From Rhodococcus pseudokoreensis (GTDB lineage Bacteria > Actinomycetota > Actinomycetes > Mycobacteriales > Mycobacteriaceae): 64,000 nucleotides of DNA. Below, in pieces: positions 20,163-59,314 of the stretch. The translations under genes were made by a program, and so were the position numbers. The notes beneath the pieces were generated by a model. The model saw nothing but the letters and a program-made list of their open reading frames with translations. It ran no database searches and was not told the origin of the DNA. How positions within the stretch are numbered: position 1 is the stretch's first letter; each line of letters starts with the position of its first letter. The DNA lies in assembly GCF_017068395.1 (NCBI RefSeq), contig NZ_CP070619.1, positions 6,014,001 through 6,078,000 on the forward strand, written 5' to 3'.

Positions 20163-20177
20163 CTCAAGGAGATGTAA

Positions 20178-27856: not shown

Positions 27857-27862
27857 GGTGAG

Positions 27863-43996: not shown

Positions 43997-45658
43997 GTGA
44001 GTGCACGCACCGAAGTTGATGCTCGGGCGAATCGGATCTGCGACGTGGACGCGGTCGTCGTCGGCGCGGGATTCGCGGGTCTGTACGCCGTCCACAAACT
44101 GCGGAGCCTGGGCCTGACGGTCCAGGGTGTCGAGGCCGCGGACGGCGTCGGCGGAACCTGGTACTGGAACCGCTATCCCGGCGCCCGGTGCGACGTGGAA
44201 AGCGTCGACTACTCGTACTCGTTCTCGCGGGAACTCGAGCAGGAGTGGGACTGGAGCGAGAAGTACGCCACCCAGCCCGAGATCCTGGCGTACATCGATC
44301 ACGTCGCGGACCGGTTCGACCTCCGCGACCGTTTCCTGTTCGGCACCCGCGTGACGTCCGCGGAACTGGACGAGGAGACGCTGCGGTGGGAGGTGCGCAC
44401 CGACCGCGGCGACATCCTGTCCGCGCGGTACTGCGTCTTCGCGACCGGGGCGCTGTCCACCGCGAACATGCCGAACATCCCGGGCCGCGAATCCTTCACG
44501 GGCGAAACGCATCACACCGGGCACTGGCCGCACCAGGGGGTCGACTTCACCGGCAGGCGGGTCGGGATCATCGGCACCGGATCCTCGGGCATCCAGTCGA
44601 TTCCCGAGATCGCCGAGCAGGCCGATCACCTGTACGTGTTCCAGCGCAGCGCCAACTACAGCGTCCCCGCGGGCAACGAGACGTGGGACGACGAGATGCG
44701 GCGCGCGATCAAGGCCGGGTACGACGAGCGCAGGCGACTGTCCCGGGAGAGCGGCGGCGGGTCACCGTACAACGCGCACCCGAAGTCGGCACTGGAGGTG
44801 TCCGAGGAGGAACGCCGCGACGCCTACGAGACGCGCTGGAAGCTTGGCGGGGTGCTGTTCGCGAAAACCTTTCCGGACCAGACGAAGACCGAGGCCGCCA
44901 ACGCAACGGCGCGGGAGTTCGCGGAGGAGAAGATCCGCCGCCTCGTCGACGACCCCGCGGTCGCGGACAAGCTGATCCCGAACGATCACCCCATCGGGAC
45001 CAAACGGATCGTCACCGACACCCACTATTTCGAAACGTACAACCGGCCGAACGTCACCCTGGTGGATCTCAAGGCGGCGCCGATCGAGTCGATCACCCCG
45101 TCGGGTGTCACCACCGCCGATGCCGACTACGGACTCGACACGCTGGTGTTCGCCACCGGATTCGACGCCATGACCGGAGCCCTCGACCGCATGCGGATCG
45201 TCGGCCGGAACGGCGTGTCTCTCGCCGAGTACTGGAGTGAGGGACCGAAAACCTATCTGGGTCTGGGTGTTCCGGGGTTCCCGAACCTGTTCGTCGTGAC
45301 GGGGCCGGGCAGCCCGTCGGTGCTGGCGAACATGGTGCTCGGCGCCGAGCAGCACGTCGACTGGATCGCGGACTGCATCGCACACCTGTGGGAGAAGGAC
45401 TACGACGCGGTCGAGGCGTCGGTGCCGGCCACCGAGCAGTGGGTGGAGCACTGCCGCGAGCTTGCCGCACAGACCCTGTTCCCGCTGGCGAACTCCTGGT
45501 ACATGGGGGCCAACATTCCGGGCAAACCGCGTGTGTTCATGCCGTACCTCGGGGGCTTCGGCGCGTACGGGCGGATCTGCGCCGACGTCGCAGAGGAGGG
45601 GTTCCGCGGGTTCGAATTCAGCCGGTCCCGCACGAGGCTCGCCGACCCGGTGGGGTAG
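43997..45658 (+). CDS. Baeyer-Villiger monooxygenase, steroid/phenylacetone monooxygenase type
   Basis: A 553-aa FAD/NADPH enzyme that inserts oxygen next to a ketone to give an ester or lactone. The GTG start at 43997 follows GAGGAG at 7-nt spacing. FAD motif GAGFAG near residue 23, NADPH motif GTGSSG near 195, and the type I BVMO fingerprint FTGETHHTGHWPH at about 167-179. Blocks such as RYPGARCDVESVDYSYSFS, LSRESGGGSP, PKSALEVSEEERR and TGPGSPSVLANMV closely resemble, from memory, the steroid monooxygenase of R. rhodochrous and phenylacetone monooxygenase. Followed by KshA-type steroid genes, so a 20-ketosteroid is a reasonable substrate guess. Confidence 0.9.
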   Translation: MSARTEVDARANRICDVDAVVVGAGFAGLYAVHKLRSLGLTVQGVEAADGVGGTWYWNRYPGARCDVESVDYSYSFSRELEQEWDWSEKYATQPEILAYIDHVADRFDLRDRFLFGTRVTSAELDEETLRWEVRTDRGDILSARYCVFATGALSTANMPNIPGRESFTGETHHTGHWPHQGVDFTGRRVGIIGTGSSGIQSIPEIAEQADHLYVFQRSANYSVPAGNETWDDEMRRAIKAGYDERRRLSRESGGGSPYNAHPKSALEVSEEERRDAYETRWKLGGVLFAKTFPDQTKTEAANATAREFAEEKIRRLVDDPAVADKLIPNDHPIGTKRIVTDTHYFETYNRPNVTLVDLKAAPIESITPSGVTTADADYGLDTLVFATGFDAMTGALDRMRIVGRNGVSLAEYWSEGPKTYLGLGVPGFPNLFVVTGPGSPSVLANMVLGAEQHVDWIADCIAHLWEKDYDAVEASVPATEQWVEHCRELAAQTLFPLANSWYMGANIPGKPRVFMPYLGGFGAYGRICADVAEEGFRGFEFSRSRTRLADPVG

Positions 45659-45672
45659 TTGCGCAGGCATTG

Positions 45673-45706
45673 GTCAGCCGCGCAGGCAATTGCCTGCGCG
45701 GCTGAC
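45673..45706. terminator. 34-bp perfect palindrome, likely bidirectional terminator
   Basis: The arm GTCAGCCGCGCAGGCAA (45673-45689) is followed without a loop by its exact complement to 45706; three further A/T pairs flank it beyond one mismatch. It sits 14 bp after the monooxygenase stop and 42 bp from the convergent gene's stop. No long T-run, as is common in actinobacterial terminators. Confidence 0.75.
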
Positions 45707-45748
45707 TAATTCGTGGGATTCTGGTCGTTCGTGGGATGGGGGGCGCGC

Positions 45749-46255
45749 TCAGTCGGGCAGGGCGTACGTGGCCCAGGCCCGGGCGAGCACGTCCCCGTCG
45801 AGCGTGCACGTGACGGTGACGTCGGTCATGCGCACGCCGTCCTGGACGTACGTCTGCTGCAACGAAGACGTGAACTCCGCCTCGGACGGCACGGCCCGCC
45901 GGATGCGGGTGCGGAACCTGCGGAGGTCACCGGGAAACTGCTCGGCGCAGTGGCGCTCGAGCAGGTCGGCCGACCGGTCGTCCTGTGTCGCGGCGCCGGT
46001 GAAGCTGTTCGTCCAGAACTCGAAGACCAACTGCTCGTCGCGGTTGCGGAAGCGGATCAGCAGGTCGTGGTCGTCCAGCCGGTGGATCCGAGGGAACAGG
46101 GCGTCGTCCGCGGTCGGGTGTGGTCGCAGCAGCAGGAAGTCCTGCTCGACGGCCGCGCCCGGTTGGGGTGCGACGACCACCCCGTCCGGGAGGGCGTCGG
46201 CGCAGAGCCGGCGGATCTCCGCTGTGCACGGCTGCGAAGAGATGAGTGCGGCCAT
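45749..46255 (-). CDS. Hypothetical protein, 168 aa
   Basis: A minus-strand gene starting at ATG 46255 with TTGGGAGGAACG before it, a strong ribosome site. The product is soluble, with no signal or membrane segment; distinctive stretches are FPRIHRLDDHDLLIRFRNRD and QLVFEFWTNSFTGA. I do not recognise the family. It may be an NTF2/SnoaL-like or ring-hydroxylating-dioxygenase beta-subunit-like fold, but this is weak. It diverges from KshA across 227 bp and sits between two steroid-type oxygenases. Confidence 0.7.
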   Translation of the reverse strand: MAALISSQPCTAEIRRLCADALPDGVVVAPQPGAAVEQDFLLLRPHPTADDALFPRIHRLDDHDLLIRFRNRDEQLVFEFWTNSFTGAATQDDRSADLLERHCAEQFPGDLRRFRTRIRRAVPSEAEFTSSLQQTYVQDGVRMTDVTVTCTLDGDVLARAWATYALPD

Positions 46256-46482
46256 CGTTCCTCCCAAATCACGGGGTCTGTAGTCCGCACGGTAGTCGCC
46301 GCGGCCGGGAAACGGGGGCCGTGGTCCCTGTGATCGGGACGCCGAAATCCCGCCGTGACGACTCGCTGCGAAAGCCTCTCGCTCAGTGGGAGAGTCGGGT
46401 ACCGCAACGGACCGTGTGCGCCGACTATGAGCTACACCACACCCCGAGGGTGTTCTTGACGTACAGCGAGGCGGAGGTAGAC

Positions 46483-47643
46483 ATGGCGCGCAACAGTGCC
46501 GTTGACGGCGACGAAGTCCGGATGATCGAAGTGGGATCGGCACCAACGCGTTTCGCGCGAGGGTGGCACTGCCTGGGTCTGGCGAAGACCTTCAGGGACG
46601 GCACCCCGCACCAGATCGACGCGTTCGGCACGTCGCTGGTGGTGTTCGAGACGTCCGACGGCACCCTCAGTGTGCTCGACGCCTACTGCCGCCACATGGG
46701 TGGCAACCTGGCGCACGGCACCGTGAAGGGCGACTCCATCGCCTGCCCGTTCCACGACTGGCGCTGGGGCGGCAACGGCAAGTGCACCGGAATCCCGTAT
46801 GCGCGGCGCGTCCCGCCGCTGGCACGGACCCGGGCCTGGACGACCATCGAGCGCAACGGGCAGCTCTACGTCTGGAACGACCCGCAGGGCAACCCGCCGC
46901 CCGCCGACGTGACGATTCCCGAGATCGAGGGATTCGGCTCCCCGGAATGGACCGACTGGACCTGGAATTCGCTGCTCGTCGAGGGTTCGCACTGCCGCGA
47001 GATCGTCGACAACGTGGTCGACATGGCGCACTTCTACTACGTCCACTTCTCGTTCCCGCGCTACTTCAAGAACGTCTTCGAAGGGCACGTGGCCACCCAG
47101 TACATGCAGTCGACGCCCCGCCACGACATCTCGGTGGGCACCAGCTACGACGACCCCAATTCCACGCTGCGCTCGGACGCGTCGTATTTCGGCCCGTCCT
47201 ACATGATCGACAAGCTGTGGAGCGAGGCGAACGGCATGATGATCGAGACGGTGCTGATCAACTGCCATTACCCGGTCAGCGCCGATTCGTTCGTCCTGCA
47301 GTGGGGCGCCATGGTGAAGAAGCCCGAGGGGCTGTCGGACGAGATGGCGAACGGCATGGCGGCCCAGTTCGCCGAGGGCGTGGAGCTCGGGTTCAAGCAG
47401 GACGTCGACATCTGGCTGAACAAGTCGCGCATCGACAACCCGCTGCTGTCGGAGGAGGACGGGCCGGTGTACCAGCTTCGCCGCTGGTACCAGCAGTTCT
47501 ACGTGGACGTCGAGGACATCACCGAGGACATGACCAAGCGCTTCGAATTCGAGATCGACACCACCCGGGCAGTGCAGAGCTGGGAGGCGGAGGTTGCCGA
47601 CAACCTCGCCAACGGCGTCGTCCCGCTCGACACCAACGCCTGA
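46483..47643 (+). CDS. kshA: 3-ketosteroid 9-alpha-hydroxylase oxygenase-like Rieske protein (KshA type)
   Basis: A 386-aa Rieske oxygenase; the start at ATG 46483 has GGAGGTAG upstream. The [2Fe-2S] ligands are Cys69/His71 (AYCRHMGG) and Cys88/His91 (ACPFHDW); the mononuclear iron ligands begin with His183 and His188 in VDMAHFYYVHFSF, with a later Asp in QDVDIWLNK. Spacing and residues closely follow KshA, which with the reductase KshB hydroxylates C9 of 1,4-androstadiene-3,17-dione and so opens ring B. No kshB is present in the window. It leads an HsaA-HsaC block on the same strand. Confidence 0.88.
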   Translation: MARNSAVDGDEVRMIEVGSAPTRFARGWHCLGLAKTFRDGTPHQIDAFGTSLVVFETSDGTLSVLDAYCRHMGGNLAHGTVKGDSIACPFHDWRWGGNGKCTGIPYARRVPPLARTRAWTTIERNGQLYVWNDPQGNPPPADVTIPEIEGFGSPEWTDWTWNSLLVEGSHCREIVDNVVDMAHFYYVHFSFPRYFKNVFEGHVATQYMQSTPRHDISVGTSYDDPNSTLRSDASYFGPSYMIDKLWSEANGMMIETVLINCHYPVSADSFVLQWGAMVKKPEGLSDEMANGMAAQFAEGVELGFKQDVDIWLNKSRIDNPLLSEEDGPVYQLRRWYQQFYVDVEDITEDMTKRFEFEIDTTRAVQSWEAEVADNLANGVVPLDTNA

Positions 47644-47671
47644 GCCGGCTCAGAGAAGAAGGACACGACAG

Positions 47672-48853
47672 ATGACCCACGAGGTTCTCGACAACATCAT
47701 GGCGATCGCGGACCAGCTCCGCGATCAGGCGCCCGAGGCCGAGCGGATCGGCCGGCTGCCCGACGAGACGGCGAAGAAGCTCCGCGAGGCGGGCCCGATC
47801 AAGCTCCTCCAGCCGGGCACGTACGGCGGGTTCGAGGCGCATCCGCGGGAGTTCGCGGAGACGGTGATGGCCGCGGCGTCGCTCGACCCGGCCACGGGAT
47901 GGGTGTGCGGCATCGTCGGGGTGCACCCCTGGCAGTTGGCGTTCGCCGACCCGAAGGTGCAGGAGGAGGTGTGGGCGGCCGACTCCGACACCTGGATGGC
48001 CTCGCCGTACGCGCCGACCGGGATCGCGACTCCCGTCGACGGCGGCTACCTGTTCAGCGGACGCTGGCAGTTCTCCTCGGGCACCGATCACTGCGACTGG
48101 ATCTTCCTCGGCGCGATGCTCGGCGACAAGGACGGCGCCATGGCGCTGCCGCCGAAGATGCTGCACATGATCCTGCCGCGCAGCGACTACGAGATCGTCG
48201 AGGACTCGTGGAACGTCGTCGGGCTCAAGGGCACCGGGTCCAAGGACATCATCGTCCAGAACGCCTTCGTCCCCGACTACCGGGTGATGGACGCCGACGA
48301 GGTCATGAACGGCACCGCGGTGCAGAAGTTCGGGCGCACCGAGACGCTGTACAACATGCCGTGGTCGACGATGTTCCCGCTCGGAATCTCCTCCGCCGTG
48401 GTGGGAATCGCGGAGGGCGCACTGGCCGCCCACCTCGACTACCAGCGCGACCGCGTCGGTGCGCAGGGCACCGCGATCAAGGACGACCCCTACGTGCTGT
48501 TCGCGGTGGGTGAGGCGGCGGCCGACATCAACGCCGCCCGGCAGGAACTGCTCGCCAACGTCGACCGGATCTGGGACCTCGTCGAGTCGGGCAAGGAGGT
48601 CACGTTCGAGGACCGCGCGGCCGGACGCCGCACCCAGGTGCGGGCGGCGTGGCGGGCGGTCACCGCCGTCGACCAGATCTTCGCCCGCTCGGGCGGCAAC
48701 GCGCTGCGCATGGACAAGCCCCTGCAGCGGTACTGGCGGGACGCGCACGCCGGCCTGGCGCACGCGATCCACGTGCCGAGCACCGTGTACCACGCATCGG
48801 CGCTCAGTTCCCTCGGCCTCGACCCGGCCGACAACCTCAAGTCGATGATCTGA
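47672..48853 (+). CDS. hsaA: HsaA-type flavin-dependent monooxygenase oxygenase subunit
   Basis: A 393-aa protein of the acyl-CoA-dehydrogenase-fold, two-component monooxygenase group. HsaA hydroxylates 3-HSA to the catechol 3,4-DHSA using FMNH2 from HsaB. Family blocks are GPIKLLQPGTYGGFEAHP, SLDPATGWVCGIVGVHPW, FSGRWQFSSGTDHCDW and GLKGTGSKD. Starts 28 bp after the KshA stop (GAAGGACACGACAG). The likely reductase partner is encoded at 52593-53111. Confidence 0.88.
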   Translation: MTHEVLDNIMAIADQLRDQAPEAERIGRLPDETAKKLREAGPIKLLQPGTYGGFEAHPREFAETVMAAASLDPATGWVCGIVGVHPWQLAFADPKVQEEVWAADSDTWMASPYAPTGIATPVDGGYLFSGRWQFSSGTDHCDWIFLGAMLGDKDGAMALPPKMLHMILPRSDYEIVEDSWNVVGLKGTGSKDIIVQNAFVPDYRVMDADEVMNGTAVQKFGRTETLYNMPWSTMFPLGISSAVVGIAEGALAAHLDYQRDRVGAQGTAIKDDPYVLFAVGEAAADINAARQELLANVDRIWDLVESGKEVTFEDRAAGRRTQVRAAWRAVTAVDQIFARSGGNALRMDKPLQRYWRDAHAGLAHAIHVPSTVYHASALSSLGLDPADNLKSMI

Positions 48854-48890
48854 CCGTCGCCGGCACACGAAAACAGCAGAAGGACAACAC

Positions 48891-49796
48891 ATGACAGACA
48901 TCAAGGGCCTGGGCTACGTCAAGATCCAGACCAACGACCTGGAGCGCTGGCGCACGTTCGCGTTCGACGTCCTCGGATTCGCCGAGGGGTCGGGACCGGA
49001 CGAGGACGCCCTCTACCTCCGCATGGACGAGCGGGCGGCGCGCATCGTGATCGTGCCGGGGGAGACCGACGAGGTCGTCACCATCGGGTGGGAGGTCCGC
49101 GACCATGCGGGCCTGGTCCGCGTCCAGGAGGCGGTCGAGGGCGCAGGCATCGCCGTCAAACCGCTGTCGGTGGAAGAGGCCGACGCGCGCCGCGTCGAGG
49201 AGGTCGTCACGTTCCAGGACCCGACGGGCGCGACGATCGAGATCTTCCACGGCGCCGTCCTCGACCACAGCCCGGTGGTCACCCCGTTCGGCGCGAAGTT
49301 CGTGACCGGGGCGCAGGGCCTCGGCCACGTCGTGCTGCCGGTGATGGACTTCGGGGGAGCGTTCGACTTCTACACCGAGGTGCTCGGCTTCCTGCCCCGC
49401 GGTGCGTTCCGGATCCCGGCCCCGCCGGAGTTCGGGCCGATGCGGGTGCGTTTCCTCGGCGTCAACGAGCGGCACCACAGCCTGGCGCTGTGCCCCGCAC
49501 CGCACGGTGGTGCGCCGGGACTGGTGCACATCATGGTGGAGGTCGACACGCTCGACGCTGTCGGGCAGGCTCTCGACCGCGTCGTCAAGGACGGGTTCTC
49601 CGTCTCCTCGACGCTCGGTCGGCACACCAACGACAAGATGGTGTCGTTCTACGTGCGGGCGCCCGGCGGCTGGGACGTCGAGTTCGGCACCGAGGGCATG
49701 AAGGTGGACGAGAAGTACTACTCCGCGGAGGAGATCACCGCCGACAGTTACTGGGGACACGACTGGTCGGGGAGTGAGCCGCTGGCGGCGATGTAA
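48891..49796 (+). CDS. hsaC: HsaC-type extradiol catechol dioxygenase
   Basis: A 301-aa type I extradiol dioxygenase with two VOC domains. Fe(II) ligands are His146 (GLGHVVL), His213 (GLVHIMV) and Glu264 (DVEFGTEG), at positions nearly identical to BphC/HsaC. The reaction is meta-cleavage of a catechol such as 3,4-DHSA. Starts 37 bp after HsaA with GAAGGACAACAC. No hydrolase of the HsaD type follows in the window; the cluster continues with a regulator. Confidence 0.9.
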   Translation: MTDIKGLGYVKIQTNDLERWRTFAFDVLGFAEGSGPDEDALYLRMDERAARIVIVPGETDEVVTIGWEVRDHAGLVRVQEAVEGAGIAVKPLSVEEADARRVEEVVTFQDPTGATIEIFHGAVLDHSPVVTPFGAKFVTGAQGLGHVVLPVMDFGGAFDFYTEVLGFLPRGAFRIPAPPEFGPMRVRFLGVNERHHSLALCPAPHGGAPGLVHIMVEVDTLDAVGQALDRVVKDGFSVSSTLGRHTNDKMVSFYVRAPGGWDVEFGTEGMKVDEKYYSAEEITADSYWGHDWSGSEPLAAM

Positions 49797-49806
49797 GGGG
49801 TGTCCG

Positions 49807-49845
49807 GGCCCGGTGTGCGTATCCACTCGATGCGCGCACCGGGCC
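49807..49845 (+). terminator. Hairpin terminator after hsaC
   Basis: GGCCCGGTGTGCG (49807-49819) pairs with CGCGCACCGGGCC (49833-49845), 13 bp with one G-T wobble and a 13-nt loop, followed by TTTCGG. It lies 10 bp after the HsaC stop and ends the KshA-HsaA-HsaC transcript. Confidence 0.75.
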
Positions 49846-49884
49846 TTTCGGCTGTTCGGGGGCTGTGCCGCGAAGCACTATTGC

Positions 49885-49904
49885 AAATAGGTATATGCCT
49901 ATTT
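49885..49904. promoter_or_regulatory. Palindrome AAATAGG-N6-CCTATTT before iclR-type gene
   Basis: A 20-bp inverted repeat with 9 of 10 matched pairs, in an AT-rich island (unlike the surrounding high-GC DNA) 64 bp upstream of the IclR-family start. A good candidate for an autoregulatory operator and/or promoter core. Confidence 0.6.
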
Positions 49905-49968
49905 ATAGTAAGTGTCGCCAGTCACACAGCGCGGCGCCGCACCGAGCAGCGCCGTTACGGAGGTCCCC

Positions 49969-50760
49969 ATGACGACGACACTCAGCCCCACTCCCACCGC
50001 CGGCCTCGATCGCGCCGCCCTTCTCCTCGACGCCTTCGACGGCCCGGGCAGGCTCACGCTCGCGCAGATCGTGCGCCGCACGGGGCTCCCGCGATCCTCC
50101 GCGCACCGGATGCTCGAACGTCTCGTCCAGCTGCGGTGGCTCCGCCGGGAGGGCCGGGACTACGAACTCGGCATGCGGCTGTTCGAACTCGGGTCCCTCG
50201 CCGTGCACCAGGACCGTCTGCACCGGGCGGCGCTGCCCTTCCTGCACGAACTGCACCGCCTCACCGGGCACGCCGTGCACCTCGCCGTGCTGGAGGGGAT
50301 CGACGTCGTCTACCTGGAGAAGATTGCCGGACGGTTCGGCGTCGGGCTGCCGTCCCGCGTCGGCGGCCGCCAGCCCGCGCACTGCACGAGCGTCGGCAAG
50401 GTGCTGCTGGCCCACGCGCCCGAGTCGGTGGTCGACCGTGTCGTCGAGGCCGGTCTGCCCCGCAGCACACGATTCAGCATCGACTCGCCGGCCGCTTTCC
50501 GTGCCGAGTTGCAGAAGACCCGCGAACGCGGAGCGGCCTACGACCGCGAAGAGGATCTCGTGGGCGTGAGCTGCGTCGCGGTGCCCGTGGGCACCGAGGA
50601 CAACGTGGTGGCCGCCATCTCCGTGTGCGGTCCGAGCAGCCAGATCAAGCTCGATCACCGTCTGACCGCGCCGATTCGCATGTCCGCCAAGGGCACCTGG
50701 CGCAACTACATGTCGACCGCGACACCGGCAGGCGGACGCGCCGACCGATACTCCGCCTGA
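49969..50760 (+). CDS. IclR-family transcriptional regulator
   Basis: A 263-aa regulator; ATG 49969 is preceded by GGAGGTCCCC, better than the in-frame ATG at 49912. The N-terminal winged HTH reads LTLAQIVRRTGLPRSSAHRML (about residues 27-47); the C-terminal effector domain contains HCTSVGKVLLAH and GVSCVAVPV. It is in line between HsaC and the esterase gene (20 bp before it) and probably controls the flanking steroid-type genes. Confidence 0.93.
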   Translation: MTTTLSPTPTAGLDRAALLLDAFDGPGRLTLAQIVRRTGLPRSSAHRMLERLVQLRWLRREGRDYELGMRLFELGSLAVHQDRLHRAALPFLHELHRLTGHAVHLAVLEGIDVVYLEKIAGRFGVGLPSRVGGRQPAHCTSVGKVLLAHAPESVVDRVVEAGLPRSTRFSIDSPAAFRAELQKTRERGAAYDREEDLVGVSCVAVPVGTEDNVVAAISVCGPSSQIKLDHRLTAPIRMSAKGTWRNYMSTATPAGGRADRYSA

Positions 50761-50780
50761 GACGGGACCGAGGAGCATAG

Positions 50781-51734
50781 ATGCCGCTCGACGAGCAGGC
50801 CGAGACCATCCTCCGGGGACTCAACGAGAACTTTCCCCGGGTCGAGACCATGACCGGCGCCCAGGCTCGGGCGGCGACGAAGGCCGGACGCAGGGCCGTA
50901 TCCGACCCCGAGCCGGTCGGTGCCGTGTACGACCGGGAGATTCCCGGCGGGGCCGGATCGATTGCGGTACGGATCTATTCGCCCGCCGGGAACTCCGCGG
51001 GACCGCGTCCCGTCGTCGTCTTCTTCCACGGCGGCGGGTTCGTGATCTGCGACCTCGACAGCCACGACGGCTTCTGCCGCGCCATGTGCAACGGGATCGG
51101 CGCCGTCGTCGTCTCCGTCGACTACCGCCTGGCCCCGGAATCGCCGTGGCCCGCCGCGGCGGACGACGCCTACGCCGCGACGTGCTGGGTCGCGCAGCAT
51201 GCCCCCGAGTTCGGCGGCGATCCGGACCGTCTGCTCGTCGCCGGTGACAGCAGCGGGGGCAACCTCGCCGCCGTCACGGCACTGATGTCCCGCGACCGGG
51301 GCGGACCCGCCGTCGCCGGACAGGTGCTGGTCTACCCCGTCGTGGAACCGGACTTCGACACCGAGTCCTACGTGCAGTTCGCGGAAGACCACTTTCTCAC
51401 CCGCGCTGCGATGCAATGGTATTGGGACCAGTACCTGCCTGCTCACCGCGAGACGGTGCCCACCTACGCGGCCCCGGTCCGGGCCGAGGACCTCGGCGGG
51501 CTGCCGCCCGCGGTCGTGATCACCGCCGAACGCGACCCGCTCCGGTACGAGGGGGAGAAGTACGCCGCGGCGCTCGCCGACGCCGGTGTTCCCGTGCAGC
51601 TCGAGCGGGTCGAGGGAATGTTCCACGGATTCCTGACGATCGACGCGATGACCGCGGCGCAGCGGGTGCGGGAACAGCTGTGGCCGCAGCTTCGGAATCT
51701 GGTGGCCGAACGGGTGCGCACCCCGTCCGACTAG
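50781..51734 (+). CDS. HSL-family alpha/beta-hydrolase esterase
   Basis: A 317-aa esterase. The oxyanion motif FFHGGGF is near residue 82, the nucleophile Ser in GDSSGGN near 157, an Asp in the ERDPLRYEG segment near 250 and His in GMFHGFL near 280 complete the triad. Starts 20 bp after the IclR stop. HSL-type enzymes cleave short acyl esters; in this cluster it could hydrolyse the acetate ester made by the Baeyer-Villiger enzyme from a 20-ketosteroid. Its end overlaps the convergent PadR gene by 4 bp. Confidence 0.92.
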   Translation: MPLDEQAETILRGLNENFPRVETMTGAQARAATKAGRRAVSDPEPVGAVYDREIPGGAGSIAVRIYSPAGNSAGPRPVVVFFHGGGFVICDLDSHDGFCRAMCNGIGAVVVSVDYRLAPESPWPAAADDAYAATCWVAQHAPEFGGDPDRLLVAGDSSGGNLAAVTALMSRDRGGPAVAGQVLVYPVVEPDFDTESYVQFAEDHFLTRAAMQWYWDQYLPAHRETVPTYAAPVRAEDLGGLPPAVVITAERDPLRYEGEKYAAALADAGVPVQLERVEGMFHGFLTIDAMTAAQRVREQLWPQLRNLVAERVRTPSD

Positions 51735-52462
51735 GTCTCGGCCTCGTCGCCGGAATCCTGCGCCGCCTTCATGGCGGCCTGGTACTCCTGCTGCGCCGCC
51801 CTCGAGCGCCGGATCGAATGCGATTCGGTCGGTTTCGGCACACCGGGATGCTCCGGGGTCCCTTCGCCGCGCATCCGCAGGGCGGCCTCGTCGATGTCGG
51901 CGAGCATCTGCTTCGCGAGTTCGCTCTCGGCGGCGTAGTAGCGCTCGGACCACTTGTTGACCATGTGCGCGAACGCCCACTCGGGTTCGACGGCGGAATC
52001 GCGGGCGTCGAGCGCGGCCTGCCTGCTCATCCCCTCCACATACGAGATATGTTCTTCGAGGGCCTCTTTGAGCTGTTCCGGCTCCGTGAGGTGGCCGAGC
52101 CACATGCGCAGCATCACCCCGTGCTTGAGGACGGGCGGATCGATCGGCGCCTCCCGCGCCCAGCTGCGCATGACGGCCATACCGGCGTCCGTGATCTTGT
52201 ACAGCCGCTTGGGTTTCACCCGCGCCTCGTCGTCCACGACGGTCCGCGACGTCACGTATCCCAGATCTTCGAGCTTCTTCAGCTCCGAGTACACCTGACT
52301 GAACGACGGGCTCCAGTAGAAGAAGCGCACACTGTACGAGGCCCACTTCTTGAGGTCGTAGCCGGACATTTCCTCGCCGAACGACAGGATGCCGAGTACC
52401 GGCCAGCTCGTGGATCGGAGGCCGGCGTACCCGGAGCTCTGGGTGGGGTCGGACGAAGGCAT
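51731..52462 (-). CDS. PadR-family transcriptional regulator
   Basis: A 243-aa PadR regulator with the N-terminal winged helix (LGILSFGEEMSGYDLKKWA, SFSQVYSELKKLEDLGYV, KRLYKITDAG) and a long C-terminal helical dimer arm (Vir-type) ending in an unusually long acidic/polar tail. It diverges from the HsaB-type reductase gene across 130 bp and may regulate it and the KstD gene. Confidence 0.92.
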   Translation of the reverse strand: MPSSDPTQSSGYAGLRSTSWPVLGILSFGEEMSGYDLKKWASYSVRFFYWSPSFSQVYSELKKLEDLGYVTSRTVVDDEARVKPKRLYKITDAGMAVMRSWAREAPIDPPVLKHGVMLRMWLGHLTEPEQLKEALEEHISYVEGMSRQAALDARDSAVEPEWAFAHMVNKWSERYYAAESELAKQMLADIDEAALRMRGEGTPEHPGVPKPTESHSIRRSRAAQQEYQAAMKAAQDSGDEAET

Positions 52463-52592
52463 TTCCCGAGCCTATCAACCGTGCGCCGCCCGCCGGTTGC
52501 CGCGAAACCCTGCCGCTGGGCGGGACGGGGCATTTCCCGCCCGCAGGTGTCGCGGCCACGCTGAACGCAACCCGTCGATCCGAGGAGACACG

Positions 52593-53111
52593 ATGACCCG
52601 AACCGAAGAACCCGCGCCGCCGGTGGTGCGCCGCATCGACCCCGCCGACCTCAAGTCGGTGCTCGGGCACTTCTGCACCGGCGTCACGGTGATCACCGCG
52701 CACGACGGCGAGAGCCCGCACGGCTTCACGTGTCAGTCCTTCGTGTCGCTGTCGCTGGACCCGCCGTACGTGTCGTTCAGCCCCGCACGGACGTCGACCA
52801 GCTGGCCGCGGCTGCGGGCGAGCGAGCACCTGTGCGTCAACGTCCTCGCCCACGACCAGCGGGACGTGTGCGGGACGTTCGCGACCAGCGGCGCCGACAA
52901 GTTCGCCGGCGTCGGGTGGTCGCACGCCGGCAACGGCGCCCCCGCGCTGGACGGAGTGCTGGCCCGGGTGCAGGCGACCGTCGAATTCGAGCACGACGCC
53001 GGCGACCACACCATCGTCGTCGCACGCGTGACCGGACTGGACGTGCTGCGGGACGTGCCGCCGCTCCTGGTGTACCGCGGCGGGCTCGGCATCTTCACCG
53101 CCGCCACGTAG
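52593..53111 (+). CDS. hsaB: HsaB-type flavin reductase
   Basis: A 172-aa FMN reductase (flavin_reduct fold) that supplies FMNH2 to the HsaA oxygenase. The start at ATG 52593 has CGAGGAGACACG upstream. Family features: VLGHFCTGVTVIT, FTCQSFVSLSLDPPYVSFSP, LCVNVLAHDQ, a central FEHDAGDHTIVVARV. It is separated from HsaA by four genes but is the only reductase in the window. Confidence 0.9.
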   Translation: MTRTEEPAPPVVRRIDPADLKSVLGHFCTGVTVITAHDGESPHGFTCQSFVSLSLDPPYVSFSPARTSTSWPRLRASEHLCVNVLAHDQRDVCGTFATSGADKFAGVGWSHAGNGAPALDGVLARVQATVEFEHDAGDHTIVVARVTGLDVLRDVPPLLVYRGGLGIFTAAT

Positions 53112-53116
53112 CCGAT

Positions 53117-53201
53117 CCTTCTCCCGCTCGGCCCTTCTCCCGCTCGGCGCCGGTGCCGCTGTCTCCCGCTCCGCGTCGGTGCCGCTGTCTCCCGCTCCGC
53201 G
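53117..53201. repeat. Short tandem repeats built on CTCCCGCTC
   Basis: CCTTCTCCCGCTCGG occurs at 53117-53131 and 53133-53147. GGTGCCGCTGTCTCCCGCTC plus CGCG occurs at 53152-53175 and 53178-53201 (24-bp copies, period 26). All four units share CTCCCGCTC. They fill the gap between the HsaB and KstD genes. Confidence 0.85.
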
Positions 53202-53271
53202 GGAAGGGCTGTGGGAAAGAGCAATTGACACCGGCAGGATGTGATCGAGACCACTTCGGAAGGTGTGCACG

Positions 53272-54948
53272 ATGAGCGTAGACGAGCAGAACTGGGACCG
53301 GGAGGTCGATCTCCTGGTGATCGGCAGCGGTGCGGGCGGCATGACCGCCGCCCTCGCCGGGGCCGAGCGAGGACTCGACACCCTCGTCGTCGAAAAGTCC
53401 GGCGTGTACGGCGGTTCGACGGCGCTGTCCGGTGGCGCCCTGTGGATCCCCAACTCGCCGATCCTCGTCCGTGAAGGCCGCGCCGACGACCCCGCCGACG
53501 TCCGGAAGTACCTGGAGTCGATCGTCGGCGACAGCGTGCCCGCCGAACGCCTCGACGCGTACATCGAGCAGGGCCCGGCGATGATGCAGTTCTTCGAACA
53601 GCACTGCCCGCACCTCCGGTTCTCCTGGTGCGAGGACTATTCCGACTACCACCCCGAGAACGTCGGCGGACGGCCGAAGGGGCGGACGGTCGAACCGCTG
53701 CCGTTCGACATGAACCAACTCGGCGCCGACCGCGAACAGCAGCGCCCGAACTCCCTCGCCATGCCGGGCGGGCTCTACATGACGTCCACCGAGTTCCGGC
53801 ACCTCAACATGTTCTTCCGCACCTGGGCCGGCCGCAGGACCGCACTGGGCGTCGGCTGGCGTTCGGTGGTCGCGATGGTGCGGCGCCGGCGGATGGAGAC
53901 CCTGGGGCAGGCCCTCGTCGGCCGGCTGCGGCTCAGTCTCCAGGAGGCCGGCGTCCTACTGTGGCTGAACTCCCCGCTGAAGGGGCTGATCACGGACGAG
54001 TCCGGGGCCGTCACGGGCGCGGTCGTCGAGTCCGGAGAACGGGAACTGCGCATCCACGCCCGCCGCGGCGTCATGATGGCCACCGGCGGATTCGAGCAGA
54101 GCGAGGAGATGCGGAAGCGGTACCTGAGGGAGGGCGGCAAGGACAACTACAGTGCCGGCTCGCCCGACAACACCGGCGACGGAATTTTGGCGGGCGAAGA
54201 GGTCGGCGCCGCCGTCGACCTGATGGACGACGCCTGGTGGATGCCGTCGTTCCGGCGCCCGGACGGCATCATGCACGTCCTGGTGTCGGAGCGGTCGATC
54301 CCGCCGTCGCTGATCGTCGACCAGAACGGCAAGCGGTTCACCAACGAGGCGTCCCCGTACGTGTCGTTCGTCCACGACCAGATCGCGGGCGGGCACGACC
54401 CGGTGTGGTTCGTGTTCGACTCGAAGGCCAAGAGCCGCTACCAGTTCGGTGGTGTGATGCCCGGGCAGAAGTTCCCGGCGGAATGGTTCTCCACGGGCCT
54501 GATGCTGCGCGCGGAGACCCTCGGCGAACTGGCGCAGCAGATGAGTGTGCCCGCCGAGGCGCTGTCCGCCGAGATCACCCGGTTCAACGGTTTCGCCCGG
54601 GCGGGAGTCGACGCCGACTTCGGTCGCGGCGACAGCGCGTACGACCGGTACTACGGCGACCCGGGCCTGCCCAACCCGACCCTGGACGAGGTGGACAAGG
54701 CCCCGTACTACGCGGTGCGGATGGAGGCCGGCGACCTCGGCACCAAGGGCGGACTCGTGTGCAACGAGCACAGCCAGGTGCTGACCGGCAGCGGCGAACC
54801 GATCCCCGGGCTGTACGCCACCGGAAACACGTCGGCGTCCGTGATGGGCAACGACTACGCCGGCGCCGGCGCGACGATCGGCCCCGCGATGGTGTTCGGC
54901 TGGGTCGGCGCACGGCACGCGGCAGCCACTGCAGAGGCGGTGAGCTGA
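53272..54948 (+). CDS. kstD: 3-ketosteroid delta-1-dehydrogenase-type flavoprotein (KstD)
   Basis: A 558-aa flavoprotein; ATG 53272 is chosen over GTG 53263 because GGAAGG sits 8 nt upstream. N-terminal FAD motif LVIGSGAGGMTAALAG with EKSGVYGGSTALSGGALW; C-terminal GLYATGNTSASVMGNDYAGA with GATIGPAM. The Tyr and the Gly four residues later in DYAGAG match the pair that contacts the C3 carbonyl in known KstDs. It would introduce the C1-C2 double bond in ring A of a 3-ketosteroid, the partner reaction of KshA. Some 3-ketosteroid-4-ene or other 3-oxo desaturases look similar. Confidence 0.88.
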   Translation: MSVDEQNWDREVDLLVIGSGAGGMTAALAGAERGLDTLVVEKSGVYGGSTALSGGALWIPNSPILVREGRADDPADVRKYLESIVGDSVPAERLDAYIEQGPAMMQFFEQHCPHLRFSWCEDYSDYHPENVGGRPKGRTVEPLPFDMNQLGADREQQRPNSLAMPGGLYMTSTEFRHLNMFFRTWAGRRTALGVGWRSVVAMVRRRRMETLGQALVGRLRLSLQEAGVLLWLNSPLKGLITDESGAVTGAVVESGERELRIHARRGVMMATGGFEQSEEMRKRYLREGGKDNYSAGSPDNTGDGILAGEEVGAAVDLMDDAWWMPSFRRPDGIMHVLVSERSIPPSLIVDQNGKRFTNEASPYVSFVHDQIAGGHDPVWFVFDSKAKSRYQFGGVMPGQKFPAEWFSTGLMLRAETLGELAQQMSVPAEALSAEITRFNGFARAGVDADFGRGDSAYDRYYGDPGLPNPTLDEVDKAPYYAVRMEAGDLGTKGGLVCNEHSQVLTGSGEPIPGLYATGNTSASVMGNDYAGAGATIGPAMVFGWVGARHAAATAEAVS

Positions 54949-55203
54949 GTGCTTCCCGTCGAATGCCGGCGCTGCGGTAACGCGGTGCTCGTGGAGAAAT
55001 ACAGCGAGGCGCACACGAGCGTGCAGTGGCTGGGTGACGCCGAGCAGACCTGCCCGGAGTTCGCGCTGCGTGCGCAGGAGGGGGAGCACTCGATGTTCGT
55101 CCCCACCTGCGGCGCGCTGCGCGGATCGATCGACGACGCGGTGGAGGACGGGCGGGTGGGGCTCTCCCTGCGCAGCTACCCGACCCCCGGCCGCCTGGAC
55201 TAG
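54949..55203 (+). CDS. Small Cys-containing protein, 84 aa
   Basis: A GTG start at 54949 directly adjoins the KstD stop (TGAGTG). The product has CRRCGN near the N-terminus, KYSEAHTSVQW, then CPEF and PTC, so four spaced cysteines that could bind zinc or an Fe-S cluster. I do not recognise a named family. Tight coupling to KstD suggests a role as partner, electron carrier or assembly factor. It is followed by an SDR gene 12 bp later. Confidence 0.7.
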   Translation: MLPVECRRCGNAVLVEKYSEAHTSVQWLGDAEQTCPEFALRAQEGEHSMFVPTCGALRGSIDDAVEDGRVGLSLRSYPTPGRLD

Positions 55204-55215
55204 AAGGGACAACCG

Positions 55216-56016
55216 ATGTCACGGATGGCAGGCAAGGTCGCCTTCATCACCGGTGCCGGAAACGGTATGGGGCGCAGTCACGCGGTCCGGCTCGCGGAGG
55301 AGGGCGCCGACGTCGTTGCCGTCGACCTTCCCTCGGCCGCAGCCGATCTCGACGACACCCGAAGGCTGGTGGTCGAACTCGGCCGCCGGGCCGTCGTGGC
55401 CCACGCCGATGTGCGGGACCCGGCGGCGCTGCGGGCGGCCGTCGACGCCGGAGTCGCGGAACTGGGGCCCCTCGACGTCGTCGTCGCGAACGCCGGCGTC
55501 TGCGACAACCCCGGCCCGGCCTGGACGATCGACGACGAGATCTGGCACCGCTCGCTCGACGTCAACCTCAGCGGCGTCTGGAACACGGCGACCGCCGCGG
55601 TCCCGGCGATGCGGGACGGCGGCGGATCCGTCGTGATCGTCAGTTCGACGGCAGGCATCAAGGCGGTGGCCGGGGCCGCCCACTATTCGGCGTCCAAGAC
55701 CGCCGTGGTCGGGTTGGCCCGGACCCTCGCCAACGAACTCGGACCGCAGTTCATCCGGGTCAACGTGCTGCACCCCGGTGCCGTCGGCACCCGCATGACC
55801 CTGAACCCGGAGACGATGGCACGGCTGCGGCCGGACCTCGACAACCCCACCCGTGACGACGTCGTCCCCGTCCTCGCGGCCAACCACGTCCTGCCCGTTC
55901 CGTGGCTGGACTCGCGGGACGTCAGCAACGCGCTGCTGTTCCTCGCCTCGGACGAATCGCGATACATCACCGGCACACAACTCGTGGTCGACGCCGGACT
56001 GACCCAGAAGGTGTAG
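55216..56016 (+). CDS. Mycofactocin-coupled SDR family oxidoreductase (1)
   Basis: A 266-aa SDR: KVAFITGAGNGMGRSHAVRLAEEGADVVAVD, VANAGVCDN, Ser in IVSSTAGI, YSASK. The HAVRLAEEGAD motif, an insertion after the second strand, and the end LPVPWLDSRDVSNALLFLAS fit the mycofactocin-coupled SDR subfamily with non-exchangeable NAD. Such enzymes oxidise secondary alcohols; a 17-hydroxysteroid is a plausible substrate here. The stop is 2 bp from the next SDR. Confidence 0.88.
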   Translation: MSRMAGKVAFITGAGNGMGRSHAVRLAEEGADVVAVDLPSAAADLDDTRRLVVELGRRAVVAHADVRDPAALRAAVDAGVAELGPLDVVVANAGVCDNPGPAWTIDDEIWHRSLDVNLSGVWNTATAAVPAMRDGGGSVVIVSSTAGIKAVAGAAHYSASKTAVVGLARTLANELGPQFIRVNVLHPGAVGTRMTLNPETMARLRPDLDNPTRDDVVPVLAANHVLPVPWLDSRDVSNALLFLASDESRYITGTQLVVDAGLTQKV

Positions 56017-56018
56017 AG

Positions 56019-56849
56019 ATGACAGGTCGAGTGAACGGAAGAGTCGTCCTGGTCACCGGTGCCGCGCGCGGGATCGGCCGGGCGCAGGCACTGCGATTCG
56101 CGCAGGAGGGCGCGGACGTCGTGGCCGTCGACCTGTGCGGGCCGGTCGGCACGGTGGTGACACCACCGGCGAGCACGGAGGACCTCGAGGTGACCGCGAA
56201 ACTGGTCCGGGACACGGGCCGCCGGATCGTGACGGCGCAGGTGGACGTGCGCGACGGCACCGCGCTCGCCGACGCGGTGACGGCCGCGGCCGGGGAGCTG
56301 GGCGGGCTGGACTTCGTGTGCGCCACGGCCGGCATCACGTCCTCGGGCGCTGCGCTGGAACTCGATACGCAGACGTGGCAGACGATGCTCGACGTCAACC
56401 TGACGGGGGTGTGGCAGACGTGCAAGGCGGCGGCCCCGCACCTGATCGAGCGGGGCGGCGGGGCGATGATCCTGACGAGTTCCATCGCCGGTCTGCGCGG
56501 ACTTGTCGGCGTCGCGCACTACACCGCGGCCAAGCACGGGGTGGTGGGTCTGATGCGGTCGCTGGCCAAGGAACTCGCACCGCACCGGGTGCGGGTCAAC
56601 AGCGTGCATCCCACCAACGTCGACACGGACATGATCCAGAACGACATGGTGCGGCGGGCGTTCCGGCCCGACCTCGAGCACCCCACCCGGGAGGAGTTCG
56701 CCGCGGCCGCGGTGACGATGAACATGCTGCCGATTCCGTGGATCGAACCGGTCGATGTGGCCAACGCCGCGCTGTTCCTGGCCTCCGACGAGGCGCGGTA
56801 CATCACGGCGGTCGCCCTGCCGGTCGACGCGGGCAGCGTCAGCAGATAG
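56019..56849 (+). CDS. Mycofactocin-coupled SDR family oxidoreductase (2)
   Basis: A 276-aa paralogue of the preceding SDR: VVLVTGAARGIGRAQALRFAQEGADVVAVD, a long insertion with a Pro-rich turn, CATAGITSSG, Ser in LTSSIAGLRG, YTAAKHGVVGLMR, and LPIPWIEPVDVANAALFLAS. The same subfamily features as the upstream gene indicate a bound NAD recycled by mycofactocin. The ATG at 56019 has a poor ribosome site (GTAGAG), so it is probably translated by coupling. Confidence 0.88.
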   Translation: MTGRVNGRVVLVTGAARGIGRAQALRFAQEGADVVAVDLCGPVGTVVTPPASTEDLEVTAKLVRDTGRRIVTAQVDVRDGTALADAVTAAAGELGGLDFVCATAGITSSGAALELDTQTWQTMLDVNLTGVWQTCKAAAPHLIERGGGAMILTSSIAGLRGLVGVAHYTAAKHGVVGLMRSLAKELAPHRVRVNSVHPTNVDTDMIQNDMVRRAFRPDLEHPTREEFAAAAVTMNMLPIPWIEPVDVANAALFLASDEARYITAVALPVDAGSVSR

Positions 56850-56931
56850 CAAATCCCCGAGTCCGCCCCGACACCTGACGATCCGTGGTAGAACAGGTGT
56901 CAGTTTTGGGGGCGGACGAAGGGTGTATGCC

Positions 56932-57414
56932 GTGGATCTCGAGGCCGTCGCCGCGATCAGCAGGCTCAAGTACACGTATCTGCGCGCCCTCGACACGAAG
57001 TGCTGGGACGAGTTCGCCGACACGCTCCTTCCCGACGCGACCGCGAACTACGGCGAGCATCTCGCGTTCGAGTCGCGGGACGCGCTGGTCGAGTTCATGA
57101 AGTCGAATCTGGGGCCGCGGACCATCACCGAGCATCACTGCGGTCACCCGGAGATCGACGTCGACGGCGACACGGCGACGGGGCGGTGGTTCCTGTCCGA
57201 CACCGTGCTGATCCCAGAACACGACATGGTGCTGCGTGGGGCCGCGTTCTACTCCGACCGCTACGCCCGCGGGCCGGACGGGCGATGGCGGATCGCCCAC
57301 ACCGGCTACGAGCGCACGTACGAGGCGGTGATGTCGCTGGCCGACATTCCCAGCTTCCGGCTGACGGCCAACCGGTGGGCAGCCGACACGGAATCAGCGA
57401 GAGGGGACTCGTGA
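56932..57414 (+). CDS. SnoaL-like / NTF2-fold protein
   Basis: A 160-aa small protein. The GTG at 56932 gives MDLEAVAAISRLKYTYLRALD, the normal start of SnoaL_4-type proteins, with GAAGGG upstream; a GTG at 56923 is also possible. Features: DEFADTLLPDATANYG, ITEHHCGHPEIDVDGDTATGRW and DGRWRIAHTGYERTYE. The family includes isomerases, hydratases and dehydrases of steroid and polyketide routes. The stop overlaps the next SDR start by one base. Confidence 0.88.
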   Translation: MDLEAVAAISRLKYTYLRALDTKCWDEFADTLLPDATANYGEHLAFESRDALVEFMKSNLGPRTITEHHCGHPEIDVDGDTATGRWFLSDTVLIPEHDMVLRGAAFYSDRYARGPDGRWRIAHTGYERTYEAVMSLADIPSFRLTANRWAADTESARGDS

Positions 57415-58175
57415 TGGGGACGCTGGACGGCAAGGTCGCACTGATCACCGGCGCCGGTCAGGGCGTGGGTGCCGGGATGGCGTTCGCGCTGGCCAAGGAA
57501 GGTGCACGGATCGCGGTGGTCGGGCGCACGGAGGCGAAACTCGTCGACACGTGCGCCGCGATCGCCGACTTCGGCGGCGTCGCCGAGCCGATCGTCTGCG
57601 ACGTCAGCAAACGCGATCAGCTGGGTCCGATGGTCGACCGCGTCGTGGAGGTGTTCGGCGGGATCGACATCCTCGTCAACAACGCCAACGCGAGCGCGCT
57701 CGGGCCACTCCTGGAGATCACCCCGAAGCTTCTCGACCGCGCGATGGCCGTCGGCCCGGTGGCCACGCTGTTCCTGATGCAGCTGTGTTACCCGCACCTG
57801 AAGGCGCGCGGCGGCGGCTCGATCATCAACCTCGTCAGCTCGTCGGCCGTGCGCTGGGACACGAGCGGCTACGGGCTGTACGCGGCCACCAAGGAGGCGA
57901 TGCGTTCGCTCACCCGGACCGCGGCCAGCGAATGGGGTCCGGACGGCATCCGCGTCAACGCGATTGCGCCGCACGCACTGTCCCCGGGACTGAAGTGGTG
58001 GACGGAGACCAATCCGGAGGAGGCCGCCGAGTTCGTGAAGTCGATTCCGCTCGGCCGGATCGGTGATTGCGAACGCGACATCGGGCGCGCCGTCGTCTTC
58101 CTCGTCGGTCCCGACGCCGGCTACCTGTCGGGAGCCACCATCCCGCTCGACGGCGGTCAGGCGCGCTGGAGCTGA
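57414..58175 (+). CDS. SDR family oxidoreductase
   Basis: A 253-aa SDR: VALITGAGQGVGAGMA, Arg after the second strand (VVGRTEAK, NADPH-type), NNANAS instead of NNAG, Ser in LVSSSAVRW, YAATK, ending LSGATIPLDGGQARWS. The ATG at 57414 overlaps the SnoaL-like stop; a GTG at 57411 is an alternative. Last gene of the steroid-type run before the leader-peptide region. Confidence 0.9.
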   Translation: MGTLDGKVALITGAGQGVGAGMAFALAKEGARIAVVGRTEAKLVDTCAAIADFGGVAEPIVCDVSKRDQLGPMVDRVVEVFGGIDILVNNANASALGPLLEITPKLLDRAMAVGPVATLFLMQLCYPHLKARGGGSIINLVSSSAVRWDTSGYGLYAATKEAMRSLTRTAASEWGPDGIRVNAIAPHALSPGLKWWTETNPEEAAEFVKSIPLGRIGDCERDIGRAVVFLVGPDAGYLSGATIPLDGGQARWS

Positions 58176-58447: not shown

Positions 58448-59314
58448 ATGAGCACTGCATTCGAAACCAGGACCGCGTCGCTGACGCTCGACAAGTTCGG
58501 CCCGTCGTTCGGGGCCGAGATCATCGGACTGGACGTCGCGTCCGCCACCGACGCCGAGGTGGCCGCGATCCGGTCGGCGTTGACCGAGCACAAGGTGCTG
58601 GTCCTGCGGGGCCAGTCGCTCGACGACTCGGGCCACATCGAGTTCGGTCGCCGACTCGGTCAGCTGACCGCGGGCCATCCCGTCCACGACAGCGGCAACG
58701 TCGCCCGGGAGGTGTACGCGCTCGACAGCCAGGACAACGGTTTCGCCGACGTGTGGCACACCGACGTCACGTTCATGAAGCGGCCGCCGCTCGGGTCGAT
58801 CCTCCGGCCCGTCGTCCTCCCACCGCACGGCGGCGACACCAACTGGGCCGACAGCCAACTGGCGTACGAGTCGCTGTCGCTGCCGATCCGGCAGATGATC
58901 GACCAGCTGACCGCGGTGCACGACGGCAACCGCGAATTCGGGTACTACCTCGCGCAGAAGCGCGGCGGCAAGGGAAACATCTGGGACGGTGAGGAAGTCA
59001 CGGCACTCGTGCCCGTCGAGCATCCCGTCGTGCGGGTGCACCCGGAGACGGGGCGCAAGGGCATCTTCGTGAATCCGGGTTTCACGTCCCACATCGCCGG
59101 AGTGTCCGAGGCGGAGAGCCGGGGCATCCTCGACTTCCTGTACGCCCACCTCACCAAACCGGAGCACGTCGTGCGGCACCGCTGGCGTCTCGGCGACCTC
59201 GTGCTGTGGGACAACCGCAGCACCGCGCACTACGCCAACCGCGACTACGGAACCCAGCACCGCGTCATGCACCGCATCACGCTGGAAGGCGATGTGCCGG
59301 TGGGCCCGCGGTAG
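58448..59314 (+). CDS. TauD/TfdA-family Fe(II)/2-oxoglutarate dioxygenase
   Basis: A 288-aa dioxygenase; iron ligands His104 and Asp106 (VWHTDVTF) and His261 (STAHYANRDYG), and a late Arg (QHRVMHRI) for 2-oxoglutarate. Closest family type is alkylsulfatase/taurine dioxygenase, which release sulfite or sulfate from organosulfur compounds. The Cys-codon leader peptide upstream supports a sulfur-scavenging role. GCGGAAAGACATC gives the ribosome site. Confidence 0.9.
   Translation: MSTAFETRTASLTLDKFGPSFGAEIIGLDVASATDAEVAAIRSALTEHKVLVLRGQSLDDSGHIEFGRRLGQLTAGHPVHDSGNVAREVYALDSQDNGFADVWHTDVTFMKRPPLGSILRPVVLPPHGGDTNWADSQLAYESLSLPIRQMIDQLTAVHDGNREFGYYLAQKRGGKGNIWDGEEVTALVPVEHPVVRVHPETGRKGIFVNPGFTSHIAGVSEAESRGILDFLYAHLTKPEHVVRHRWRLGDLVLWDNRSTAHYANRDYGTQHRVMHRITLEGDVPVGPR

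Follow-up and report, generated by a model that had tools for sequence, protein, structure and literature searches.

The steroid monooxygenase (STMO) of Rhodococcus rhodochrous, represented by the structure 4aos, converts progesterone to testosterone acetate (PMC12239570). Progesterone is a widespread hormone pollutant, and according to a 2025 article the route by which R. rhodochrous degrades progesterone has not been described though the monooxygenase is known (PMC12239570). The same conversion is carried out in Caenibius tardaugens by a type I Baeyer–Villiger monooxygenase (BVMO) that is 30.4% identical to STMO and is encoded in the pdc cluster, four genes in 4.6 kb (the BVMO, a luciferase-like monooxygenase, and TetR and LuxR regulators) that lead progesterone into the 9,10-seco pathway (PMC12239570). 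The side chain of cholesterol is removed via beta-oxidation (PMC4810484). Here, a stretch of 64,000 nucleotides from Rhodococcus pseudokoreensis (contig NZ_CP070619.1, positions 6,014,001 to 6,078,000; hereafter the window, whose own numbering is used below) is compared with these systems. A first-pass annotation had placed a BVMO resembling STMO, an esterase, mycofactocin-type short-chain dehydrogenases/reductases (SDRs), KstD, KshA, HsaA/HsaB and HsaC together between positions 43,997 and 58,175 of the window, and this set is indeed found there. This set of genes is probably an actinobacterial cluster for the breakdown of progesterone-type 20-ketosteroids.

The first gene of the cluster (43997..45658; genes of the cluster lie on the plus strand unless stated otherwise) encodes a type I BVMO of the STMO type, predicted to turn a 20-ketosteroid into its 17-acetate ester. 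STMO is the best PDB match of the protein (4aos, 807.9 bits, versus 642.3 bits for phenylacetone monooxygenase), and the two are 68% identical over 522 amino acids. The window BVMO carries two Rossmann motifs, GAGFAG and GTGSSG, and, at residue 167, the fingerprint FTGETHHTGHWP; we take the type I BVMO fingerprint to be FxGxxxHxxxW(P/D). In the PDB alignment, the position at which 4ap1 departs from 4aos is K295, and for 4ap3 it is T345. The window BVMO keeps Lys and Thr at the equivalents of these active-site positions, where phenylacetone monooxygenase has Ala and Leu. Among named relatives, the BVMO of this 9.87-Mb genome is closest to those of Rhodococcus koreensis, wratislaviensis, opacus and jostii.

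A tree of 121 BVMOs (21 of 142 sequences were dropped as identical over a slice or as short) was built with a quick method and rooted at its midpoint, with SH-aLRT as the sole measure of support. The window BVMO and STMO fall in one group of 91 rows (SH-aLRT 98), which also holds every one of the 61 rows with a near label (HsaA, HsaC or KshA nearby), 22 rows labelled far and 8 without a label, and none of the 30 rows outside it is labelled near. The labels used a distance of 10 kb for loci L009–L088 (C, G and L numbers are our labels for contigs, genomes and loci) and were set by hand for L104–L163, among the HsaA matches listed and up to about 22 kb. The near label changes 14 times on the tree, compared with 37.6 changes when labels are shuffled, and none of 500 shuffles gave a count as low. 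The K295 position is Lys throughout the STMO group (91 of 91 rows) and the T345 position is Thr in 90 of 91, and neither residue occurs there in any of the 30 rows outside; these counts track the tree and are not independent of the tree result. Within the group, the window BVMO lies in a subclade of 48 rows that includes the chromosomal and pRHL1 enzymes of Rhodococcus jostii RHA1 as well as enzymes of R. erythropolis and Nocardia, and the sister subclade of 36 rows holds STMO and a second BVMO of the host genome (C6:4223936). Thus, the window BVMO is a close relative of STMO and not its strict orthologue. Strict one-to-one orthology was rejected because the host's own paralogue is nearer to STMO by both identity and tree.

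The locus of STMO itself is homologous to the window cluster. Among the matches listed, STMO itself, with 100% identity to the crystallised protein over 527 residues, is encoded in genome G154, which we consider close to R. rhodochrous. In the 20 kb around this gene (L164), homologues of SDR2 (64% identity to the window protein), SDR1 (67%), KshA (76%), HsaA (68%), HsaC (87%) and the IclR (55%) and PadR (48%) regulators lie on one side of STMO, and HsaB (62%) and a KstD-like gene (35%) lie on the other, DnaJ and Hsp70 genes separating the two halves of the locus. Further upstream are two hormone-sensitive-lipase (HSL) esterases (49% and 43%), a KstD-like gene (33%) and one IclR gene. The same gene group surrounds STMO in three further genomes (G182, G092 and G120, with STMO at 98, 96 and 93% among the matches listed). 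In G154, the KshA neighbouring STMO matches the crystallised enzyme 4qdc, presumably KshA5, at 99.7% identity, so that two enzymes with crystal structures lie in one cluster. R. rhodochrous DSM 43269 has five KshA genes (PMC4064121, PMC8228715), whereas three reach E 1e-40 or better in G154; thus, either G154 is not DSM 43269 or some of these genes are missing there.

The association between STMO-type BVMOs and steroid genes extends well beyond these genomes. The sample consisted of the best 80 of 166 BVMO relatives, with several strains of one species included and some loci ending at contig ends, and it was split at 61.5% BVMO identity into 50 close and 30 distant loci, this break and the per-gene identity thresholds having been chosen after the first table. 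KshA, HsaA or HsaC lies within 10 kb of the BVMO in 38 of the 50 close loci and in 0 of the 30 distant ones; for any of KshA, HsaA, HsaC, HsaB and KstD the counts are 43 of 50 and 0 of 30, and for a homologue of the HSL esterase at 48% identity or more, 32 of 50 and 0 of 30. Among the 12 close loci in which KshA, HsaA and HsaC are absent within 10 kb, at least six (L017, L021, L026, L027, L031 and L032) seem to carry HsaA about 11–32 kb away, on the same contig only if the matching of contigs by length holds; other members of the set are present at L018, L019, L020 and L038, and all ten genes counted are absent from L034 and L051. Co-location of the BVMO with nucleus-opening genes is far above chance. 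The host genome has three KshA genes (E 1e-40 or better), which makes a chance adjacency of BVMO and KshA very unlikely, and gene order varies between genera, so the association is more than one inherited block.

The nucleus-opening enzymes of the window have homologues of known structure. KshA, the 3-ketosteroid 9alpha-hydroxylase oxygenase (46483..47643), has a Rieske motif and 4qdc as its best PDB match (705.7 bits), and is 99% identical to a chromosomal KshA of RHA1. It is followed by an HsaA-like flavin-dependent hydroxylase (47672..48853; 404.9 bits with the HsaA model, cut-off 450; 571.7 bits to 2or0) and an HsaC-like extradiol dioxygenase (48891..49796; 367.9 bits with the HsaC model, cut-off 450; 292.9 bits to 2zi8), the latter scoring above the cut-off of a 2,3-dihydroxybiphenyl dioxygenase model (397.2 versus 366.45 bits). 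An HsaB-like flavin reductase (52593..53111) reaches 191.7 bits with the HsaB model (cut-off 230) and 143.2 bits to 3nfw. None of HsaA, HsaB and HsaC reaches its NCBIfam equivalog cut-off; the families are nevertheless right. When 2or0 was compared with the HsaA enzymes of RHA1, it was 62% identical to the chromosomal one (L169) and 60% to that of pRHL1, and thus is neither of them; among PDB entries it is the one that the window HsaA matches best. KstD, the 3-ketosteroid delta1-dehydrogenase (53272..54948, start possibly 53263), has 3-ketosteroid dehydrogenases as its best solved matches (7p18, 396.6 bits; 4c3x, 305.8 bits); it scores below the cut-offs of the NCBIfam 3-oxosteroid/3-ketosteroid 1-dehydrogenase models and above that of the FAD-binding subfamily PRK12835.1. 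The residues that we take to be the active site of R. erythropolis KstD1 look conserved by eye in the alignment. A preference for progesterone is described for R. ruber KstD2 (PMC5348764).

One esterase and two dehydrogenases can be named as candidates for the steps after the BVMO. The esterase (50781..51734), a predicted 17-acetate hydrolase, scores above the cut-off of the LipP1-family hormone-sensitive lipase model (387.1 versus 350 bits) and has the motifs HGGG and GDSSGG. The mycofactocin-coupled SDR1 (55216..56016), a candidate 17-hydroxysteroid dehydrogenase, and SDR2 (56019..56849) both exceed the TIGR03971 cut-off of 300 bits (323.1 and 372.8 bits, respectively), and homologues of both occur near related BVMOs; the nearest solved chains of SDR2 are labelled carveol dehydrogenases. 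The genome encodes the mycofactocin maturase MftC (663.2 bits, cut-off 265), which fits with mycofactocin-coupled SDRs. SDR3 (57414..58175) is an ordinary SDR with PRK07231 as its best model (201.8 bits, below the cut-off of 215); it is found at 97% in RHA1 and has only weak matches (29–35%) at the STMO locus.

Taken together, these genes suggest the following route, in which the BVMO step is the best supported. The BVMO would insert oxygen between C17 and C20 to give a 17-acetate ester, the HSL-type esterase would release acetate and a 17-hydroxysteroid, and a mycofactocin-coupled SDR would oxidize the 17-hydroxyl to the ketone; the esterase and SDR assignments rest on conservation and family. 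KstD and KshA, with KshB from another locus, would open ring B, and HsaA with HsaB, then HsaC, would form and cleave the catechol, whereas HsaD, the ring C/D steps and later steps would be supplied from other loci. KstD may act before or after the BVMO, and in C. tardaugens 1,2-dehydroprogesterone is likewise a substrate (PMC12239570). The first-pass annotation had presented this as a possibly complete Baeyer–Villiger route, with kshB and hsaD to be supplied by other loci. The Baeyer–Villiger part is strengthened, not proven, by the presence of STMO in a homologous cluster and by the shared clade linked to steroid genes, whereas "complete" does not hold, with KshB, HsaD and later steps encoded elsewhere. 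The absence of kshB and hsaD from the window was confirmed: none of 25 FAD_binding_6 matches and none of 59 HsaD-model matches in the genome lies within 6014001–6078000. Two PaaE-like reductases elsewhere in the genome, below the cut-off of that model, are no more than candidates for KshB (8 of the 25 FAD_binding_6 matches were scanned with NCBIfam). HsaD is found at C6:3358195 (516.9 bits, cut-off 400) adjoining KshA and an Hsa set, a region read as the cholesterol cluster. A weaker HsaD relative is found at C6:1464918; the same region, read as the cholate cluster, encodes a further KshA, which matches 4qdf chain B at 80% identity.

In R. jostii RHA1, taken to be our genome G005, the window cluster is collinear on the chromosome from TauD to the BVMO at 79–99% identity, with the BVMO orthologue at 95%. 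The genome has four KshA genes, the same number as in print: ro04538, ro02490, ro05811 and ro09003 (PMC4064121). By position and elimination, the match of the window KshA is presumably ro02490 (kshA2), and the kshA2 cluster would then be RHA1 gene cluster 2, the proteins of which are called of unknown function (PMC4810484). No BVMO-based role for the kshA2 cluster was found in the open-access literature searched. The RHA1 plasmid pRHL1 encodes a related set (KshA 71%, HsaA 71%, HsaC 64%, and relatives of HsaB, PadR and KstD). On the same plasmid, at 949110–1003900 (L102, L171 and L201), an STMO-type BVMO (63%) is adjoined by an HSL esterase (48%) about 29 kb from KshA. Both RHA1 clusters thus hold the STMO-type module. 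A more speculative idea, which we regard as doubtful, is that the kshA2 and pRHL1 clusters both serve C21 steroids and that their divergent HsaA, HsaB and HsaC act on secosteroids keeping an acetyl, acetoxy or hydroxyl group at C17. If this were true, ring opening would take place before or alongside the Baeyer–Villiger loss of the side chain, giving a seco-pregnane branch rather than a simple convergence on androstenedione.

Several observations weigh against assigning the cluster to progesterone-type 20-ketosteroids. The second host BVMO is 73% identical to STMO versus 68% for the window BVMO, which sits in the sister lineage of the one containing STMO, and the 20 kb around this second gene (L168, C6:4214000–4233900) hold no KshA or Hsa genes but an SDR, an AraC regulator, a TauD protein and transporters. 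The STMO locus contains a luciferase-like monooxygenase (L164:1368–2402) adjoining HsaB, the flavin reductase, and none is found among the 19 window proteins annotated at 42.8–63.4 kb. The KstD-like genes of that locus are only 33–35% identical to the window KstD, its esterases lie about 13–15 kb from STMO, and SnoaL and TauD have no match there. In the band of loci with 65–90% identity, the esterase is within 10 kb in 4 of 18. The pRHL1 cluster is described as being of unknown function, with genes most similar to those of the cholate pathway (PMC4810484), and KshA2-type enzymes have been described for androgens (PMC8228715).

The last of these points belongs to the alternative that survives best, namely that this is a C19 (androgen) cluster in which KshA, KstD and the Hsa enzymes degrade testosterone and androstenedione and the BVMO acts only occasionally or on the 17-ketone. 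In print, KshA2 orthologues are associated with steroids that carry a short side chain or none (PMC8228715), and RHA1 cluster 2 proteins share a subclade with proteins of Mycobacterium smegmatis and R. erythropolis (PMC4810484); M. smegmatis has a C-19+ cluster (PMC5962712), which may be of the same type as RHA1 cluster 2. However, in different genera the nucleus genes are accompanied by the BVMO together with an esterase homologue and the two SDRs, and androstenedione is not lactonised by STMO (PMC12239570). Androgens are, moreover, expected intermediates of a progestin route, so the two readings overlap. A cluster dedicated to C19 steroids is thus considered unlikely.

A second alternative is that the 20-ketone is formed in the cell from longer or hydroxylated side chains, with the BVMO ending a mixed route. 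On the R. qingshengii plasmid NZ_CP147922.1 (L103:11591–16134), a related BVMO–KshA pair stands beside beta-oxidation-type genes, which is a further point against a dedicated 20-ketosteroid cluster: the order SDR–SDR–BVMO–KshA follows genes for an ABC transporter, acyl-CoA dehydrogenases, CoA transferases, MaoC and thiolase. The two STMO-clade BVMOs of the host also suggest more than one ketone. Conversely, none of the 19 annotated window proteins is a beta-oxidation enzyme, nor is any among 12 Pfam-scanned ORFs of L164 (4 of the 12 had no match), and a mixed route has a low probability in our judgment. That the BVMO serves a non-steroid ketone and stands beside steroid genes incidentally is highly improbable, since the co-location (38 of 50 close versus 0 of 30 distant loci) and the presence of STMO itself in such a cluster outweigh the 31 FMO-like matches in the genome and the many ketones on which BVMOs act (PMC12239570).

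A progesterone-type 20-ketosteroid cluster thus remains the preferred reading. Every gene named by the first-pass annotation is an open reading frame (ORF) at or near the position it gave, and its list was correct; missing from it were an IclR-family regulator (49912..50760, start possibly 49969; PF01614 and PF09339), a PadR-family regulator (51731..52462, minus strand; PF03551), a SnoaL-like protein (56932..57414; PF13577) and an ORF without an assigned family (45749..46255, minus strand; no match in Pfam or NCBIfam). Across the loci compared, homologues of this ORF (74–88% identity in L009–L013, 79% in RHA1) occur solely in the R. opacus/jostii/koreensis group. The SnoaL-like protein (93%) and a TauD-family dioxygenase (58448..59314; PF02668; 96%, collinear in RHA1) are shared with RHA1. 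Intergenic gaps across 43,997–58,175 range from -4 to 267 bases, with tight spacing in KshA–HsaA–HsaC and in SDR1–SDR2.

The cluster is probably controlled by the IclR and PadR proteins rather than by KstR. We take the KstR2 operator to be AnCAAGnnCTTGnT. This motif and the KstR operator TnnAACnnGTTnnA (PMC5348764) each have 0 exact matches in the 64,000 bases (chance expectation 0.01 and 0.16, respectively), and membership of the cluster in the KstR or KstR2 regulon was rejected for want of an operator match. A 26-nt imperfect inverted repeat (43691–43747; 85% complementary, 5 nt between the arms), the longest among six intergenic stretches, lies between the BVMO gene and a divergent PhyH gene and is a possible operator. 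The PhyH-family dioxygenase to the left of the BVMO (42799–43632) has no match at any of the loci of the 80 relatives, so the conserved cluster seems to begin at the BVMO. Beyond the cluster, the window encodes a 656-amino-acid protein that combines a carrier and a condensation domain and resembles nonribosomal peptide synthetases (34190–36160), and a PF04185 phosphoesterase (59371–60906) nearest to a phosphocholine-specific phospholipase C model, below its cut-off (493.5 versus 580.25 bits). The G+C content, in 4-kb steps, is 67–70% over the steroid cluster (44–60 kb) versus 59–61% at 12001–28000.

The enzyme types and the reaction discussed here are known; here they occur in an actinobacterial cluster that brings its own isozymes for opening the nucleus, and a substrate is proposed for it where the literature consulted names none. 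A testable substrate is thereby proposed for two RHA1 clusters with function given as unknown (PMC4810484), in a strain used in steroid genetics. No paper tying STMO to this cluster was found among the matches listed in the open-access literature searched. Within the host genome, the nucleus-opening enzyme types of the window recur at C6:3.36 Mb, in the cluster that also encodes HsaD, where HsaA, HsaC and KshA are 42, 49 and 69% identical, respectively, to those of the window (L174). The C. tardaugens pdc cluster resembles the window in its type I BVMO, and its route from progesterone through testosterone acetate into the 9,10-seco pathway (PMC12239570) is like the one predicted here, whereas the window has IclR and PadR regulators and its own nucleus-opening enzymes; the luciferase-like monooxygenase beside a flavin reductase in the STMO locus parallels the luciferase-like monooxygenase of pdc (PMC12239570). 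In R. ruber Chol-4, the legend of Fig. 5c lists, among others, kstD, kshA, a hydroxylase, hsaC, iclR, padR, ntaA (flavin-reductase-like) and chnB in this order (PMC6498646), genes that presumably form one cluster. There chnB is named a cyclohexanone monooxygenase, and progesterone is not mentioned in the portion of the main text of that source considered here (PMC6498646). STMO of R. rhodochrous shares with the window BVMO its clade, its fingerprint, the two probed active-site positions and a homologous cluster, in which the gene order differs. With STMO, a crystallised KshA and Hsa enzymes in one conserved actinobacterial cluster, the progesterone pathway of R. rhodochrous would have a genetic address.

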